Source: Cellulomonas sp. | Lineage (GTDB): Bacteria; Actinomycetota; Actinomycetes; Actinomycetales; Cellulomonadaceae | Assembly: GCF_017744555.1 (NCBI RefSeq) | Contig: NZ_JAGIBD010000001.1 | Span: 429,606-493,605, forward strand | Length of the DNA stretch: 64,000 nt | Direction of reading: 5' to 3' | Part shown: positions 8,847 through 20,366 of the stretch, in pieces | Numbering within the stretch: position 1 is the first letter of the stretch | Layout: every line of letters starts with the position of its first letter | Translations under genes and position numbers: made by a program | Notes under the pieces: model-generated | The model's database searches: none | The model's input: the letters and a program-made list of their open reading frames with translations, nothing else | What the model was told of the DNA's origin: nothing

Positions 8847-9547
8847 GAGTGCTTCCTCTGCAGCGTGGCGCGGATGAGTTCTGCGAGCCTGCGGTCCGGC
8901 TCGCGTGTGCGGGGCCCCGCGTTCCGGGGCGACGAGTGGTCGGCCGCGATACGGCCGCCGTCGAGGACGACGATGCGATCGCCCAGGTAGAGGGCCTCGT
9001 CGAGGCTGTGCGTCACGAGCAGCACGTTCATGCCGGTCGTGCGCTGCACGTCGAGCAGCAGGTCCTGCATGTCCTCGCGGGTGTCCTGGTCGAGCGCGGC
9101 GAACGGCTCGTCCGCCAGGACGAGCGACGGGCCGTTCGCGAGCGCCCGGGCGAGCGCGACCCGGTGCCGCATGCCGCCCGAGAGCTGGTGGGGCAGGGCG
9201 TCCTCGAAGCCCGCCAGCCCCACGAGGGCCAGGAGCCCCGCACTCTCGCAGCGACGTCGCCGTTGGCCGAAGGCCACGTTCTGCGCAGCGCTGAGCCACG
9301 GCATGAGGCGGGGCTCCTGGAACACCATCCCGGTCCTGCCGTCGCCGCGGACGCGAACGACGCCGTCGTCGGGCGCCTCCATCCCGGCGACGATCCGCAG
9401 CAGCGTGGTCTTGCCGCACCCGCTGGGGCCGAGCACGACCGTGATCCCGTCGCGCTGGACGAAGTCCAGGCCGGTCAGGACGGGGACGGCGCGGCCCCGC
9501 AACCCGTAGCTCTTGTGCAGGTTCGCGATCTCAGCGCCAGCTGTCAT
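8843..9547 (-). CDS. ABC transporter ATP-binding protein, SsuB/TauB-like
   Basis: ATPase of the importer, 234 residues. Walker A GPSGCGKTTLL, Q-loop VFQEPRLMPW, signature LSGGMRHRVALARAL, Walker B LVLADEPFAALD and H-loop LLVTHSLDEAL are all intact, so it should be active. The start MTAGAEIANLHKSYG is ATG 9547, inside the 3' end of the permease gene (17-base overlap). The track's longer version runs back through the permease. The product would energise import of whatever the adjacent lipoprotein binds. Confidence 0.93.
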   Translation of the reverse strand: MTAGAEIANLHKSYGLRGRAVPVLTGLDFVQRDGITVVLGPSGCGKTTLLRIVAGMEAPDDGVVRVRGDGRTGMVFQEPRLMPWLSAAQNVAFGQRRRRCESAGLLALVGLAGFEDALPHQLSGGMRHRVALARALANGPSLVLADEPFAALDQDTREDMQDLLLDVQRTTGMNVLLVTHSLDEALYLGDRIVVLDGGRIAADHSSPRNAGPRTREPDRRLAELIRATLQRKHS

Positions 9548-10427
9548 CGATCCCCCAGCGGAGCGTGCGTCGCACGACGAGCGCGAAGAGCCGGTCGGCC
9601 GCGACGCCGACGAGGCCGATCGCGACGACGCCGACGATGACCCTGTCGGCGCGTGACATGTGCCCGGCGTCGACGATGAGGTAGCCGAGGCCGGAGGCGG
9701 CCGCGAACATCTCCGCACCGACCAGTGCTCGCCAGGCGTAGCCCAGGCTGATGCGCATGCCGACGAGCACGTCCGGCAGGGCGTGCGGCAGCTCGATGAG
9801 CGCGAAGGTGCGGCCCCGGGAGAAGTGGAGCGACGTGCCGACGTCGAGCAGCTCCTGGCCGCACGATCGCAGGCCCTTGGTGATGCTCATGGACATGGGG
9901 ACGAAGGCGGTGAGGACGATGACGACGAGCTTGGGGGTCTCGCCGATCCCGAACCACAGGATCAGCAGCGGGATGAGGGCGAGCGGCGGCACGTTCCTGA
10001 GGAAGTTGAGGGCCGGGCTCAGGTAGGCGTACATCCGGGGCCGCAGCAGGGCCAGGACCCCCACGGCGGACGCCACGGTGAACGCGATCGCGAACCCGGC
10101 CAGCACGCGGCCGACGCTGGCGAGGACGTGCTCGGCGAGCTCGCCGGATGCCGTCATCGCCACCGCGCTCGACCACACCCGGCCGGGCGACGGCAGGACG
10201 TAGGCACTGCGCAGCCGCAGCGCGCAGACCAGCCACCACAGCCCCACGACCGCGACCGTGACCACGACGCCGTACCGCGCCCCGACCAGCGCCCTGACCA
10301 GCGCCCGGACGACGGTCCGGGCAACCGGCCGCCGAAGCGCGCGGCCCGACGTGGGTGCGGCGACGTCGTGGGCCTCCGGTGGGGGCGCCCCGACGGGCGC
10401 AGGCGCCGCATCGGCGGTCTGCGTCAT
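9531..10427 (-). CDS. ABC transporter permease, SsuC/TauC-like
   Basis: Membrane subunit of 298 residues with about six helices. It has the coupling region of this class (MSMSITKGLRSCGQELLDVG, LGYAWRALVGAEM) and the preceding FLRNVPPLALIPLLILWFG. An N-terminal Ala/Pro-rich extension of about 40 residues precedes the first helix. ATG 10427 overlaps the hydF stop as ATGA, so translation of the transporter is coupled to the hydrogenase maturase. This is firm evidence that importer and maturation genes are one transcript. Confidence 0.92.
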   Translation of the reverse strand: MTQTADAAPAPVGAPPPEAHDVAAPTSGRALRRPVARTVVRALVRALVGARYGVVVTVAVVGLWWLVCALRLRSAYVLPSPGRVWSSAVAMTASGELAEHVLASVGRVLAGFAIAFTVASAVGVLALLRPRMYAYLSPALNFLRNVPPLALIPLLILWFGIGETPKLVVIVLTAFVPMSMSITKGLRSCGQELLDVGTSLHFSRGRTFALIELPHALPDVLVGMRISLGYAWRALVGAEMFAAASGLGYLIVDAGHMSRADRVIVGVVAIGLVGVAADRLFALVVRRTLRWGIDDSWR

Positions 10428-11620
10428 CGCGGGTCCGGCAGCGCGATCGAGTCCAGGATCCCGGACAGGTGCGCGATGGTGATCCCGTAGTTCGTGATGG
10501 GAACGCCCTGCTCGCGCGCCTCGTCGATGCGCGAGAGCACGTGCCTGCGGTTGAACATGCAGCCGCCGCAGTGGATGACCAGGTCGTACGAGCCGAGGTC
10601 CTCCAGCAGGCCGGGACCGCTGAGCATGTCGACGTGGAGCGTCTGCCCGAACCGCTTGCGCAGCAGCGCCGGGATCTTGACCCGGCCGATGTCCTCCTCG
10701 AGAGGCGCATGCGTGCACGACTCGGCGATGAGGACGCGCGACGTCGGGGTCAGCGCGTCGATCCCGCGCGCGCCGTCGACGAAGGCCCTGATGTCGCCCT
10801 TGTAGCTCGCGAACAGGACCGAGAACGACGTGAGGAGGCTCTCGGCGGGCTTCGCCGCGTGCACGATCGGGAAGACCTGCGAGTCGGTGATGATGAGCTT
10901 CGGCGGGCGGGCCAGCGCCGCGAGCGTCTCGGCGAGCTTGTCGGTCGTGCAGCTCATCACCAGGCACTTCTTGTCCAGCAGGTCGCGCAGCGTCTGGACC
11001 TGGGGCAGGATCAGCCGGCCCTTGGGCGCCTGGATGTCCTGGGGCATGACGAGCAGGACGAGGTCGCCCGGCTGCGCGAGGGCGCCGGTGATGCTCGCCG
11101 GCTCGTCGTCGGGCAGCGCGGCCACGATCGCCTCGCGGACCGCGTCGACGTTGTGCCCGGTGCGCGCACTGACGAGCACCGCGTCGAGGCGCAACCGCTC
11201 CTTGACCGCCGTGCGCACGGCGTCGGGGTCGGCGAGCTCGTCGGCCTTGTTGACCACGGCCACCACGGGGACGCCGCGCCGGCCGAGGTCGGCGACCCAC
11301 TCGGCCTCGACGTCGGGCTCGTCGGCGAACACGACGATCGCGAGGTCCGTCTTCTGCGCGGCCTCGCGCGTCTTGCCGACGCGCAGACCACCCAGGTCGC
11401 CGGTGTCGTCGAGGCCCGCGGTGTCGATGAACACGACCGGTCCGACGGGGTGCAGCTCCATCGCCTTGTACACCGGGTCGGTCGTCGTGCCGGCGACGTC
11501 GGAGACCACGGAGATCGACTGACCCGTGATCGCGTTGACCAGCGACGACTTGCCGACGTTGCGCTTGCCGTAGATGCCGATGTGCAGGCGGTTCGCCCGC
11601 GGCGTGTCGAGCAGGCTCAC
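10424..11620 (-). CDS. hydF: [FeFe]-hydrogenase maturation GTPase HydF
   Basis: HydF is the scaffold that assembles the two-iron subcluster of the H-cluster and delivers it to apo-hydrogenase. The 398-residue protein has an N-terminal GTPase domain (GKRNVGKSS at 18-26, IDTAGLDD, NKAD) and a dimerisation domain. The C-terminal cluster domain carries the family ligands CTH (ESCTHAPLEEDIGRVKIP) and HCGGC. All diagnostic residues are present. GTG 11620 has a GGAGGTGG ribosome site and overlaps the hydE stop as GTGA. The downstream importer is coupled to it. Confidence 0.95.
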   Translation of the reverse strand: MSLLDTPRANRLHIGIYGKRNVGKSSLVNAITGQSISVVSDVAGTTTDPVYKAMELHPVGPVVFIDTAGLDDTGDLGGLRVGKTREAAQKTDLAIVVFADEPDVEAEWVADLGRRGVPVVAVVNKADELADPDAVRTAVKERLRLDAVLVSARTGHNVDAVREAIVAALPDDEPASITGALAQPGDLVLLVMPQDIQAPKGRLILPQVQTLRDLLDKKCLVMSCTTDKLAETLAALARPPKLIITDSQVFPIVHAAKPAESLLTSFSVLFASYKGDIRAFVDGARGIDALTPTSRVLIAESCTHAPLEEDIGRVKIPALLRKRFGQTLHVDMLSGPGLLEDLGSYDLVIHCGGCMFNRRHVLSRIDEAREQGVPITNYGITIAHLSGILDSIALPDPR

Positions 11621-12729
11621 CGTGCCACCTCCGGGTGGTCGCCGCGGTCGACGACCATCGTGTAGCCGATCCGCTCGAGCGAGCGCTGGACCGCGTGCGT
11701 CATCTCGGCCACCTCTCCGGACACTGACTTGCCGTCGTACAGCAGGTACTTGGCACGTTGGTCCTGCGGGCTCAGGTTGAGCATCAGGACGTTCGCGCCC
11801 GCCTGAATGCCCTGCTCGCGGGCCCCCGGGCGGGCGGTCCCCAGTGCGGTCGTCGAGGGCAGCAGGACGGTCGGGAGCATGAGCCGGACGAGGCTCAGCA
11901 GGAACAGCGTGAGGTCGACCGACCCGGCCGACCGGTCGCCGAACGGCGTGCTCCGGTGGGGGAGGAACGGCCCGATGCCGACCATGTGGGGGCGGAGCTC
12001 GGCGAGCAGCGCCAGGTCCGCGGCGAGGTGCTCGGGCGTCTGGAACGGCGAGCCGACCATGAAGCCGGCACCCGTCTGGAACCCGATCTCCTTGAGGTCG
12101 GCCAGGCATCGCAGCCGGGTGGCGAGCTGCTGGCTCGGCGGGTGCAGCTGCGCGTAGTGGTCGGCCGTCGCGGTCTCGTGGCGGAGCAGGAACCGGTCCG
12201 CCCCGGCGTCGAGGAACCGCTGGTAGGCCTCGCGGCCACGCTCACCGATCGACAGGGTGATCGCGCAGTCCGGGTACGCCGCGCGGATCCGGGACACGAT
12301 GTCGACGACGACGTCCGTCGTGTACCAGGCGTCCTCGCCGCTCTGCAGCACGAACGTGCGGTAGCCGAGGGAGTAGCCCTGCGCGCAGCAGCGGAGGATC
12401 TGCTCGGCGTCGAGCCGGTAGCGCTCGACCGCGCGATTGCCCTTGCGGATGCCGCAGTACAGGCAGTCCTGGCGGCAGTGGTTGGAGAACTCGATCAGGC
12501 CGCGGACGAACACCCGGTTCCCGAAGTGCTCGTGCGCGACGGCGACCGCGCGGCGGCGCGCGTGCTCCTGGTCCGCCGCCGTCGCGGACGTGATCAGGGT
12601 GACGAGACCGTCGCGTCCGAGGCGGCAGCCGTCGGCCAGCGTGTCGATGAGGTCCGCGCACCGCGACCGGACCGAGGGGACGGGCGTCGGCTCGAGTGCG
12701 CGCAGCTCAGCTGTCTGGCGGAGGGGCAA
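11617..12729 (-). CDS. hydE: [FeFe]-hydrogenase maturation radical SAM protein HydE
   Basis: Radical SAM enzyme of 370 residues that converts the Fe(CO)2(CN)-cysteine product of HydG toward the [2Fe] precursor. The cluster motif is CRQDCLYC (Cys85, 89, 92), preceded by GLIEFSN, which separates HydE from biotin synthase. Further motifs are FVLQSGED, LRHETATADHYAQLHP, MVGSPFQTPE and NLSPQDQRAKYLLYDGK. The best start is TTG 12729, five bases after a perfect AGGAGG. It overlaps the upstream TM1266-like gene by 23 bases and hydF by 4. HydG, the third maturase, is not in the window. Confidence 0.95.
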   Translation of the reverse strand: MPLRQTAELRALEPTPVPSVRSRCADLIDTLADGCRLGRDGLVTLITSATAADQEHARRRAVAVAHEHFGNRVFVRGLIEFSNHCRQDCLYCGIRKGNRAVERYRLDAEQILRCCAQGYSLGYRTFVLQSGEDAWYTTDVVVDIVSRIRAAYPDCAITLSIGERGREAYQRFLDAGADRFLLRHETATADHYAQLHPPSQQLATRLRCLADLKEIGFQTGAGFMVGSPFQTPEHLAADLALLAELRPHMVGIGPFLPHRSTPFGDRSAGSVDLTLFLLSLVRLMLPTVLLPSTTALGTARPGAREQGIQAGANVLMLNLSPQDQRAKYLLYDGKSVSGEVAEMTHAVQRSLERIGYTMVVDRGDHPEVAR

Positions 12730-12991
12730 CGGGGCCTCCTGGGACGGTCTTGGCCATGAGAGACCGCACCTGGACCCCGGGGAGGTTGCCCAACTTGCCC
12801 GTGAGCGCGGACACGCGCTCGACGGAGGTGTCGACGACGACGGTGATGACGTTGACACCGCGTGCCGGATGGGGAAGTCCGAGCCGACCGATGATTCCGT
12901 CGCCGAACTGCGTGAGCAGGTCATTGACGTTCTCGACGGGGGCGACCGACCGATCCACGATGATCGACACCACACCAAGTCTCTTCTCCAC
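12707..12991 (-). CDS. TM1266-family iron-only hydrogenase system regulator-like protein
   Basis: Small 94-residue ACT-like protein (KRLGVVSIIVDR, VNDLLTQFGDGIIGRLGLPH, NVITVVVDTSVERVSALTGK) of the TM1266 family. The family is found almost only beside [FeFe]-hydrogenase maturation genes and is annotated as a putative system regulator; its biochemistry is not established. GTG 12991 is preceded by GGGAG six bases upstream. It opens the hydE-hydF-transporter operon after a 113-base gap from sulP. It may sense a small molecule, given the ACT fold, but that is inference. The long track ORF covering it belongs to another frame of sulP. Confidence 0.85.
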   Translation of the reverse strand: MEKRLGVVSIIVDRSVAPVENVNDLLTQFGDGIIGRLGLPHPARGVNVITVVVDTSVERVSALTGKLGNLPGVQVRSLMAKTVPGGPVAPPPDS

Positions 12992-13104
12992 CGGAGGCTC
13001 CCGTGAATCAGATGTGGTCTGGACTTTGCACGCCGATGCTCGCAGCGTGATCCGGGCCACACCCCGGACATACGTCCCAGGCCCCGCCCGCCGCGCGGCA
13101 GCGG

Positions 13105-17087: not shown

Positions 17088-20000
17088 ATGCTGCCTCGAC
17101 CGCGGACGCTCGCGATCGCGCTGACCGCTCTGGCGCTGCTCGCGGCAGGTGCGCCGCCCGTCGCCGCGCAGGTCGACCCGTCGGTCACCGGCCGGCTCTC
17201 GTTGTTCAAGCGGATCGAGAACCTCGACACGGGCGCGAGCGAGGGCCGTCGCGAGCTGTGGACGATGCACGCCGTCAACACCGAGGACCCCACCTACACG
17301 TTCTCCGGCAACGGGCTGAACGGCGTGCAGTCGCTCGAGGTGCCGGCCGGCGACTACACGATCAGCGAGTCCGACGGCGTGCCCGGCTACGCGTTCGTGA
17401 GCTGGGACTGCGGAGGTGCGGGCACGTTCACGACGCCGACGCCGACCATCACGGTCCCCGCGGGCGGCAACGTCACGTGCACGGTCCGCAACGACGCGCA
17501 GCAGGCCTTCCTCACGCTGCGGAAGGTCGTGGTGGGCGGCCCGTCGAGCCCGACCGCGTGGAACCTGTTCGCGAACGGCCCGACGAACGTCAAGGGCACC
17601 GACGGTGTGCGCGTCGCCGTGCGGATCGGTCAGTACCAGCTGTCCGAGTCGAGCGGTCCGAACGGCTACACCCCGAGCGACTGGGTGTGCACGGGCGGTC
17701 AGCAGGTGTCGGGCTCGTCGGTCGTCGTGGCGCTGGGCCAGGACGTCGTCTGCACGATCACGAACACCCGCGAGGTGGCCACGCCGCACCTGCTGACGCT
17801 CGTCAAGGACGTCGCGGGCGGCCCGGCGACCCCTGCGGACTTCCAGCTGACGGCGGCCGGACCGCAGACCGTGCAGGGCCCGTCGGGCTCGCCGACGGTG
17901 ACGCAGGTGCCGGTGCCGTCGGGCACGTACGCGCTCAGCGAGCTGCCGCTGTCGGCGCCGGCGTCGAGCGCGTACAGCGCGGGTGCGTGGAGCTGTACGG
18001 CGGGAACCGTCACGGGCGCGACGCTCACCCTCGCCGACAGCGACGGCGACGTCACGTGCCGCGTGACGAACACCTACACGGGCGGCTACCTCACGCTCGT
18101 CAAGGTCGCGCTCGGCGGCTCGGTCGTGCCGCAGGCGTGGACGCTGAGCGCGACGGGCGCCGGCGGGACGGTCGCGGGTGCCACGGGCAGCCCGGAGGTG
18201 ACGCACGTGGCGGTCCCCGCCGGCACGTACGCGCTCGCGGAGCAGGGTCCGACGAACTACTCGGCGTCCCCCTGGTCGTGCACGTCAGGCGGCGACGGAC
18301 CCGCCTCGGTGACGGTCGCGGCCGGCGCCGACATCACCTGCACGATCGTCAACACGATCGAGACGGCGAGCCTCACGCTCGTCAAGCAGGTCGACAACAC
18401 CGGCGGCGGCACGGCGGCCCCCGGCGACTTCTTCCTGCGGGCGGTGAGCGACCAGGGCGTGGTCATGGCCGGTCCGTCGGGCTCGCCCCTCGTCACGCAC
18501 GTGCGGGTCGCCACGGGGCAGACGTGGTCGCTGGGCGAGGACCCGGTACCCGGGTATGCCGCAGGCCCCTGGACGTGCGACGGCGTCGTGGCGGTCGACG
18601 ACGTCGTGACGATCTCCACGCCCGCGGACGTGACGTGCACGGTCACCAACACGTGGACCGGCGGCTACCTGACGCTCGTCAAGGAGGTCGTCGGCAGCTC
18701 GACCGACCCGAGCGCCTGGGACCTGTCCGCCACCGGTCCGGACGGCGTCACGCGCACCGGCCGCACGGGCGAGGCCGCGGTGACGCGCATCCCGGTCCCC
18801 GCGGGCGACTACACGCTGACGGAGGAGCAGGTCGCCGGGTTCACGGCCTCGCCGTGGGACTGCGGCGCCGCACCCGTCGCGGGCGCGGTCGTGAGCGTCG
18901 GCACGGGCGACGACGTCGTGTGCACCGTGACGAACACCGCGACCGAGCCGCACCTCACGCTGCGCAAGGTCGTCGACAGCACCGCGGGCGGCACGCTCGG
19001 CCCCACGTCCTGGCAGCTCACCGCGGACGGGCCGGTGCAGGTCAGCGGGGTCACCGGCACCGACGCCGTCACGCTCGTGGCCGTCCCGCCCGGCACGTAC
19101 GCGCTCAGCGAGTCGCCGGCCTCGACGCCCGACTACGACGCGTCGGCGTGGGTGTGCGTCAGCGGCCCGGGCACCACGCCGGTGGTGGGCGACTCCGTGA
19201 CGATCCCCGCGACGAACCTCGACGGCTCGCCGTGGACGGACGACGTCACGTGCACGGTCGTGAACACGGCGGTCGCGCCGCGCCTCACGCTGCGCAAGGT
19301 CGTCGACAACTCCGGCGGCGGCGAGGCGGCGCCGGGTGCGTTCGTGCTGCTCGGCGTCGGCCCGGACCTTCTCGTGGGGACCACGGGCGGCCCGGCGGTC
19401 ACGGACGTTCCGGTGCGGGCGGGCACGTACTCGCTGCTCGAGATCGGCCTGCCCCGCTACGCGCTCGACGGGTGGACGTGCGTCGACGACATCGGCGCCC
19501 CGGTGCCGGTGGTCGGCGGTGGCGTGACGCTCGACCTCGGCGACGACGTGACGTGCACGGCGACGAACCGGTGGACGGGTGCGCAGCTCCGGCTGACCAA
19601 GCAGGTGCTCGGCGGACCGTCGGTCGCGACCGACTGGACGCTCGTCGGCTCGCCGCCGATCGGCGGCTTCGGCGGCGTCTCGGGCCGCGGCGGCGTCGTC
19701 GGGGTCGTCGGGCCGGGGTCCGTCGAGCTGCACGAGATCGCGCAGACGGCGGTCGCCGAGCGGGGGTACGTCCGCGAGCGGTGGGACTGCGGAGAGGGGC
19801 ATCCGGTCACGGCCGGCGACCGGGTGGCCGTCGTGGCGAACGAGGAGGTGACCTGCACGGCCGTCAACCGGTGGGTCGGCTCGACGCTCACGCTGACCAA
19901 GGCCGTCGAGGGCGGCACTGCCGCTCCGGAGGACTGGACGCTCACCGCCCTCGGTGACACCGGCCCGGTCAGCGGTGCCAGCGGCTCGGTGGCCGTCACG

Positions 20001-20366
20001 CGGGCGTTCGTCGTGCCGGGCACGTACGCGCTCGCGGAGTCGGGCGGGCCGGCGGGGTACCGGTCAGAAGGGTGGGCCTGCACGGGCGCGACCGTGCTCG
20101 GCGACCTGTTGCTCGTCGAGGGCGAGCGGGACGTCGAGTGCACGGTGACGAACGTCGCGGTGCCGCCCGTCCCGCCGACGCCCGGGCCGACGCCCGATCC
20201 GACGGCGCCTCCCGCGGGCCCCGACGACCCCGGTGCGCCGACGGCGGCCGGCGGCCTGGTGCTGTCCGCGACGGGTGCGGAGACGGCGCCGGCGCTCCTG
20301 CTCGCCGGGGCGCTCGTCGCGCTCGGCCTGGGAGCGCTCGTCGCTGCCCGCCGCCGCAGGACCTGA
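17088..20366 (+). CDS. Surface protein of ten CnaB/SpaA-like repeats with sortase-type anchor
   Basis: Secreted 1092-residue protein. A signal peptide (TLAIALTALALLAAGAPPVAA) is followed by ten tandem domains of about 100 residues. Each begins LTLxK, has a central YxLSE-type Glu, then WxC, and ends CTxxN. The Lys, Glu and Asn match the positions that form a spontaneous isopeptide bond in CnaB domains, and all ten copies retain them. All ten also keep the two cysteines, predicting one disulfide per domain. A Pro-rich stalk, LSATG (sortase-like), a hydrophobic helix and RRRR end the protein. ATG 17088 follows GGGGGG. Likely a rigid cell-wall stalk or adhesin; the tip ligand is unknown. Confidence 0.88.
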   Translation: MLPRPRTLAIALTALALLAAGAPPVAAQVDPSVTGRLSLFKRIENLDTGASEGRRELWTMHAVNTEDPTYTFSGNGLNGVQSLEVPAGDYTISESDGVPGYAFVSWDCGGAGTFTTPTPTITVPAGGNVTCTVRNDAQQAFLTLRKVVVGGPSSPTAWNLFANGPTNVKGTDGVRVAVRIGQYQLSESSGPNGYTPSDWVCTGGQQVSGSSVVVALGQDVVCTITNTREVATPHLLTLVKDVAGGPATPADFQLTAAGPQTVQGPSGSPTVTQVPVPSGTYALSELPLSAPASSAYSAGAWSCTAGTVTGATLTLADSDGDVTCRVTNTYTGGYLTLVKVALGGSVVPQAWTLSATGAGGTVAGATGSPEVTHVAVPAGTYALAEQGPTNYSASPWSCTSGGDGPASVTVAAGADITCTIVNTIETASLTLVKQVDNTGGGTAAPGDFFLRAVSDQGVVMAGPSGSPLVTHVRVATGQTWSLGEDPVPGYAAGPWTCDGVVAVDDVVTISTPADVTCTVTNTWTGGYLTLVKEVVGSSTDPSAWDLSATGPDGVTRTGRTGEAAVTRIPVPAGDYTLTEEQVAGFTASPWDCGAAPVAGAVVSVGTGDDVVCTVTNTATEPHLTLRKVVDSTAGGTLGPTSWQLTADGPVQVSGVTGTDAVTLVAVPPGTYALSESPASTPDYDASAWVCVSGPGTTPVVGDSVTIPATNLDGSPWTDDVTCTVVNTAVAPRLTLRKVVDNSGGGEAAPGAFVLLGVGPDLLVGTTGGPAVTDVPVRAGTYSLLEIGLPRYALDGWTCVDDIGAPVPVVGGGVTLDLGDDVTCTATNRWTGAQLRLTKQVLGGPSVATDWTLVGSPPIGGFGGVSGRGGVVGVVGPGSVELHEIAQTAVAERGYVRERWDCGEGHPVTAGDRVAVVANEEVTCTAVNRWVGSTLTLTKAVEGGTAAPEDWTLTALGDTGPVSGASGSVAVTRAFVVPGTYALAESGGPAGYRSEGWACTGATVLGDLLLVEGERDVECTVTNVAVPPVPPTPGPTPDPTAPPAGPDDPGAPTAAGGLVLSATGAETAPALLLAGALVALGLGALVAARRRRT

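Follow-up and report, generated by a model that had tools for sequence, protein, structure and literature searches.

A ten-domain, probably sortase-anchored surface protein of Cellulomonas with a predicted isopeptide bond and disulfide in every domain

Introduction

Some bacterial surface proteins contain CnaB-like domains in which a Lys and an Asn are joined by an intramolecular isopeptide bond. Here we ask what kind of surface protein is made when ten such domains follow one another in a single chain and each also carries a pair of Cys residues. The gene in question lies in a stretch of 64,000 nucleotides from Cellulomonas sp. (NCBI RefSeq assembly GCF_017744555.1, contig NZ_JAGIBD010000001.1, positions 429,606 to 493,605) that we call the window. 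The original prediction, made from the sequence of the window, was that this gene encodes a rigid surface fiber that is locked twice in every domain, by an isopeptide bond and by a disulfide, and is completed by a Pro stalk and a sortase-like LSATG anchor.

Both kinds of cross-link have been described in related domains. A survey of fibrillar adhesins gave rise to the SpaA_2 family (PF19403), which was built for a stalk domain (PMC8286594), and a 2025 survey of intramolecular isopeptide bonds predicted that SpaA_2 domains form this bond and found disulfides to be prevalent among them (PMC12617251). An isopeptide bond and a disulfide in one CnaB domain have precedents in FimP (PMC3485203) and in a Mobiluncus adhesin (PMC10619420), with the Cys residues at other sites.

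Results

The open frame on the forward strand begins with an ATG at 17088, ends with a stop codon at 20366, and encodes a protein of 1,092 amino acids. Sequence and prediction show ten tandem domains extending from a signal peptide to a sorting signal, and the product is a predicted secreted, wall-anchored protein (Table 1). Pfam identified ten copies of SpaA_2 (E 9e-172) and only SpaA-type domains in this protein; all ten domains score above the cut-off of 25 bits (37.4-77.5 bits).

Table 1. Features of the ten-domain protein and their positions in the window.
Feature	Residues (aa)	Position	Strand	Lys, Glu, Asn	Cys pair	Remarks	Basis
Whole gene	1,092 in all	17088..20366	+				Open frame; Pfam SpaA_2 x10; LPXTG_anchor over cut-off
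Sec signal peptide, predicted	about 1-28	17088..17171	+			MLPRPRTLAIALTALALLAAGAPPVAAQ	Reading of the sequence
Domain 1	37-135	17196..17492	+	K41, E94, N135	108/131	Most conserved; proposed tip	
Domain 2	142-226	17511..17765	+	K146, E187, N226	201/222		Motifs, alignment, Pfam
Domain 3	236-328	17793..18071	+	K240, E285, N328	303/324		Motifs, alignment, Pfam
Domain 4	335-422	18090..18353	+	K339, E385, N422	398/418	Structure predicted	
Domain 5	429-521	18372..18650	+	K433, E484, N521	497/517	Structure predicted jointly with domain 4	
Domain 6	528-616	18669..18935	+	K532, E579, N616	592/612		Motifs, alignment, Pfam
Domain 7	623-726	18954..19265	+	K627, E675, N726	690/722		Motifs, alignment, Pfam
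Domain 8	733-827	19284..19568	+	K737, E785, N827	798/823		Motifs, alignment, Pfam
Domain 9	834-927	19587..19868	+	K838, E883, N927	901/923	Weakest SpaA_2 match, 37.4 bits	
Domain 10	934-1022	19887..20153	+	K938, E984, N1022	998/1018		Motifs, alignment, Pfam
Pro-rich linker	1023-1058	20154..20261	+			Wall-spanning stalk	Reading of the sequence
Sorting motif	1059-1063	20262..20276	+			LSATG	
Hydrophobic segment and RRRR tail of sorting signal		20277..20363	+				TIGR01167, 17.4 bits vs cut-off 15.9

The motifs LxLxK, WxC, and C[T/R]xxN each occur ten times. Every one of the 20 Cys residues lies within a WxC or C[T/R]xxN motif, and 10 of the 11 Lys residues are motif Lys. With the same residue counts placed at random, the probability of this arrangement is approximately 1e-23 for Lys and 1e-42 for Cys. 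Thus, the placement is not due to chance. Alignment of the ten copies showed that L1, L3, K5, G40, V49, G52, E58, W70, C72, C95, and N99 are invariant columns. The mean column identity is 46% and the mean pairwise identity between copies is approximately 40%, so the copies are strongly diverged, as had been claimed. The coordinates, the number and type of domains, and the invariance of the Lys and of both Cys in all ten copies also agreed with the original prediction. Two of its motifs were drawn too narrowly. The Glu is present in 10/10 domains, but the YxLS preceding it is not constant (the motif ends in SE, AE, GE, TE, LE, or HE, and reads VELHE in domain 9). Likewise the Asn is present in 10/10 domains, but domain 3 has CRVTN in place of CTxxN.

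The Lys, Glu, and Asn had been read as the residues of an isopeptide bond. In the published SpaA_2 example, A0A086ZQG5, the domain spans residues 489-625 with Lys 497, Glu 571, and Asn 627 (PMC12617251). The Pfam match at residues 138-224 of the window protein has K146 eight residues after its start and N226 two residues beyond its end, which are the published offsets, and a Glu between them. This correspondence of positions supports the assignment of these three residues as a putative isopeptide triad.

AlphaFold2 was used to model two of the ten domains. Domain 4 alone, with an alignment of 20 domains as input, gave a pLDDT of 93.4 and a pTM of 0.85; domains 4 and 5 modeled together gave 95.1 and 0.78. 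In the domain 4 model, K8 lies in the first strand (2-11), E54 in the strand 48-55, C67 in a short strand (66-67), and both C87 and N91 in the last strand (84-93). The top PDB fold match of domain 4 was 5u6f (probability 1.00, TM 0.61), followed by streptococcal CnaB pilins; the E-values of this single-domain search were weak, 0.03 at best, and speak to the fold level only. The two-domain model matched CnaB pilins and adhesins with E-values down to 4.9e-6. Nothing in the PDB matched the window protein by direct sequence search, and a profile search of the PDB gave weak matches only, to CnaB pilins. Based on these models, we are confident that the predicted fold of the domain is a CnaB/transthyretin-type β-sandwich. 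Sequence and models together support a double lock in each domain, in which an isopeptide bond and a disulfide are both predicted to form.

The ten-domain protein is encoded in ten of the 82 genomes of the genus, that of the window and nine more from Cellulomonas. The orthologue from Cellulomonas chitinilytica, found in a single-protein search, shares 65% identity with the window protein over residues 1-1085. All 100 domains of the ten orthologues retain the Lys, the Glu, both Cys, and the Asn, and in 100/100 cases the best match of a domain in another species was the domain at the same position. Therefore, the ten domains predate the split of these species and were never shuffled. The mature orthologous chains contain exactly 20 Cys and either 10 or 11 Lys, with the extra Lys at no single conserved position. 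Genes neighboring the window gene were not found beside the orthologues, whose own flanking genes agree only among close relatives, and we dropped the idea of conserved operon partners on this account.

Elsewhere in the window, on the reverse strand, the frame at 11617-12900 was identified as that of HydE, the [FeFe] hydrogenase maturase (TIGR03956, 498 bits vs cut-off 254.6). Adjacent to it are a frame at 10424-12109 (reverse strand) that by eye resembles the GTPase HydF and one at 12707-13000 (reverse strand) for a TM1266 family iron-only hydrogenase system putative regulator (TIGR03959, 84.7 vs 60.8). With the HydE and TM1266 family frames, this Cellulomonas has a cluster for [FeFe] hydrogenase maturation.

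The original prediction did not note how much more strongly domain 1 is constrained than the other domains. Among orthologues the mean identity of domain 1 is 86%, compared with 57-68% for domains 2-10, and 74 of its 110 columns are invariant in the ten species. Two genomes of another family in the same order encode ten-domain proteins of 1,152 and 1,145 amino acids. Domain 1 shares 62% and 57% identity with their first domains, and most of their later domains have no clear one-to-one match to the window protein. (An eleventh match to the domain pattern, the string CSGEN in genome G117, was discounted.) In domain 1, 43 of 110 columns do not vary across all twelve proteins, including LSLFKR, ENL, TG, GLNG, and PAG. 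This pattern points to domain 1 as a functional distal tip that is under its own selection and is carried on a nine-domain stalk. Pfam detected no known adhesive domain in the window protein, so it is from conservation that we draw the putative tip role. Fibrillar adhesins are recognized by at least one known adhesive domain together with stalk repeats, and here only SpaA-type domains were found. The window protein thus appears to work like a stalk, and we offer adhesion as a proposal.

That missing adhesive domain would also be expected if all ten domains were a plain spacer, with domain 1 conserved for secretion or folding and not for ligand binding; domain 1, also of the SpaA_2 type, is the neighbor of the signal peptide. 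We consider this rather unlikely, since the constraint extends over all of domain 1, both within the genus (74/110) and with the other family included (43/110), which is beyond what a secretion signal needs.

SpaA_2 was found in 26 of the 82 genomes of the genus; across the class, 25 of 395 genomes have it. To set beside the orthologues, we have a wider sample of 240 other actinomycete SpaA_2 domains from 36 loci with letters in all five columns; it was collected with a profile that contains the five residues and is biased toward their retention. All five residues are kept in 238 of these 240 domains. One exception lacks the second Cys, and the other lacks the Lys and the Asn and keeps both Cys, so that the two Cys occur together in 239/240. 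The predicted pairing of isopeptide bond and disulfide belongs to SpaA_2 as a whole and is not peculiar to the window protein. These counts bear on whether the Lys, Glu, and Asn could be structural relics, with disulfides alone stabilizing the fiber and the isopeptide bond not formed in all domains. The N-domain of FimP has a complete triad and no bond in the crystal (PMC3485203), and in SpaD the isopeptide bond is reported to form slowly (PMC4014117). Yet the triad is intact in 100/100 orthologous domains and in 239/240 others, and the sole domain without the Lys is also without the Asn, which makes relics a very improbable explanation of what we take to be doubly locked domains.

The predicted LSATG anchor was borne out by a sorting signal (LSATG, a hydrophobic run, and RRRR) that scores over the cut-off of NCBIfam TIGR01167. 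LSATG departs at one position from LAXTG, the motif recognized by class E sortases of soil actinobacteria (PMC5148588). The orthologues have LATTG or LAATG in six cases, LGATG in one, and IAATG in two. A search for sortase genes had been suggested as a check, and the genome (4.3 Mb, 89.9% complete) yielded two, neither adjacent to the window gene. One is a class E sortase on another contig, C56 (258.6 bits vs cut-off 160). The second, at locus L114 (about 9038-9844, forward strand), is class F-like with a score of 109.9 against the class F cut-off of 166, and its frame resembles a lipoprotein. A class E sortase scores over the cut-off in 79 of the 82 genomes of the genus; therefore, it is a general sortase and not a dedicated partner. 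From its sequence, the LSATG anchor would fit a class E sortase. We found no class C (pilin) sortase in this genome, which is 89.9% complete. It also contains candidates for oxidative folding, one VKOR and two Thioredoxin_4 (DsbA-like) proteins, making oxidative folding outside the membrane plausible.

Although CnaB domains, an E-box, and a sorting signal are common to pilins and the best fold matches include pilins, we rejected as scarcely credible a sortase-assembled pilin, with subunits that a class C sortase polymerizes into a long pilus, because the sortases are one class E and one class F-like (a class C gene could have been missed at 89.9% completeness), ten of the 10-11 Lys of mature orthologues occupy isopeptide sites and leave no conserved nucleophile for polymerization, and no pilin gene cluster is adjacent. 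Since no class C sortase turned up in this 89.9% complete genome and hardly any Lys is free, the protein is probably a monomeric wall-anchored fiber and not a polymerized pilus.

Discussion

We propose that the window protein is a sortase-anchored, non-polymerized surface fiber of ten CnaB-type domains locked by isopeptide bonds and disulfides, in which domains 2-10 would be the stalk and domain 1 the tip. We estimate the probability of this reading at about 0.82. As the exported domains fold, the Lys of the first strand would be joined to the Asn of the last strand in a reaction that is catalyzed by the E-box Glu and releases ammonia. The disulfide would then clamp the strand of the WxC motif to the last strand, through the Cys that precedes the Asn by four residues. 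Cleavage of LSATG and attachment of the chain to peptidoglycan would be the work of the class E sortase. Because the isopeptide bond would tie the first strand to the last, a pulling force may bypass most of each domain. The disulfide would be off the main load path and is likelier to guard the last strand against fraying or proteases, or to position the Asn for the isopeptide reaction; by keeping the last strand in register it may resist unfolding and proteolysis. Domains 2-10 could form a stiff stalk that presents domain 1, at the distal end, to a target.

More tentatively, and with somewhat less than even confidence, we suggest that domain 1 is an adhesive or sensing tip derived from a SpaA_2 stalk domain, with the stalk fixed at nine domains. 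Nearly all Lys and Cys would be cross-linked, which would leave almost no exposed amine or thiol and prevent polymerization by a pilin sortase.

At the level of the domain we see no difference from SpaA_2 (prealbumin-like, Transthyretin clan); as a whole, the window protein stands apart in having SpaA_2 domains only, ten of them, without a recognized adhesive domain. This type of domain and both of its bonds are in print for SpaA_2, so the window protein is a well-kept new example and not a new kind. We add to this that the architecture is fixed at ten domains, that all five residues are kept in 100/100 domains, that the first domain is especially conserved, and that a monomeric fiber anchored by a class E sortase is probable.

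The giant adhesin of Mobiluncus mulieris (5u6f/5u5o, PMC10619420) is likewise an actinobacterial protein of tandem Ig-like domains, and its domain 47I has an isopeptide bond and a disulfide. However, its disulfide joins strands 2 and 5, whereas that predicted for the window protein joins a late short strand to the last, and the Mobiluncus adhesin, with its 51 domains, also contains ester and thioester bonds (PMC10619420). The shaft pilins FimP of Actinomyces and SpaA of Corynebacterium also have CnaB domains, and the C-domain of FimP contains both bonds (PMC3485203). They differ in having three domains, other Cys positions, and polymerization by a pilin-specific sortase, whereas for the window protein we found neither a class C sortase in the genome nor a spare conserved Lys.

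Cellulomonas also has other proteins with SpaA_2 arrays and sorting signals. These carry heads, VWA or the ice-binding-like pAdhesive_15, and a variable number of repeats (1 to about 20), in contrast to the fixed ten of the window protein. A second class of SpaA_2 proteins (loci L102-L110, in Cellulomonas genomes G397 to G474) is 1,988-3,176 amino acids long, with about 10-20 repeats in numbers that vary by species; L103, the one member scanned with Pfam, has a VWA domain. Loci L080 and L111 encode short proteins in which pAdhesive_15 is combined with one SpaA_2 domain and a sorting signal.

Each chain has ten copies, ten species share it, and none of the 500 cross-link positions checked is an exception; this protein is therefore a clean natural test case for the need for an isopeptide bond and a disulfide together, and its domains could serve as small, double-locked building blocks. 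Since the number and order of domains are fixed and the first domain is conserved, the tip-and-stalk model can be tested directly, and in a soil genus that is not pathogenic.
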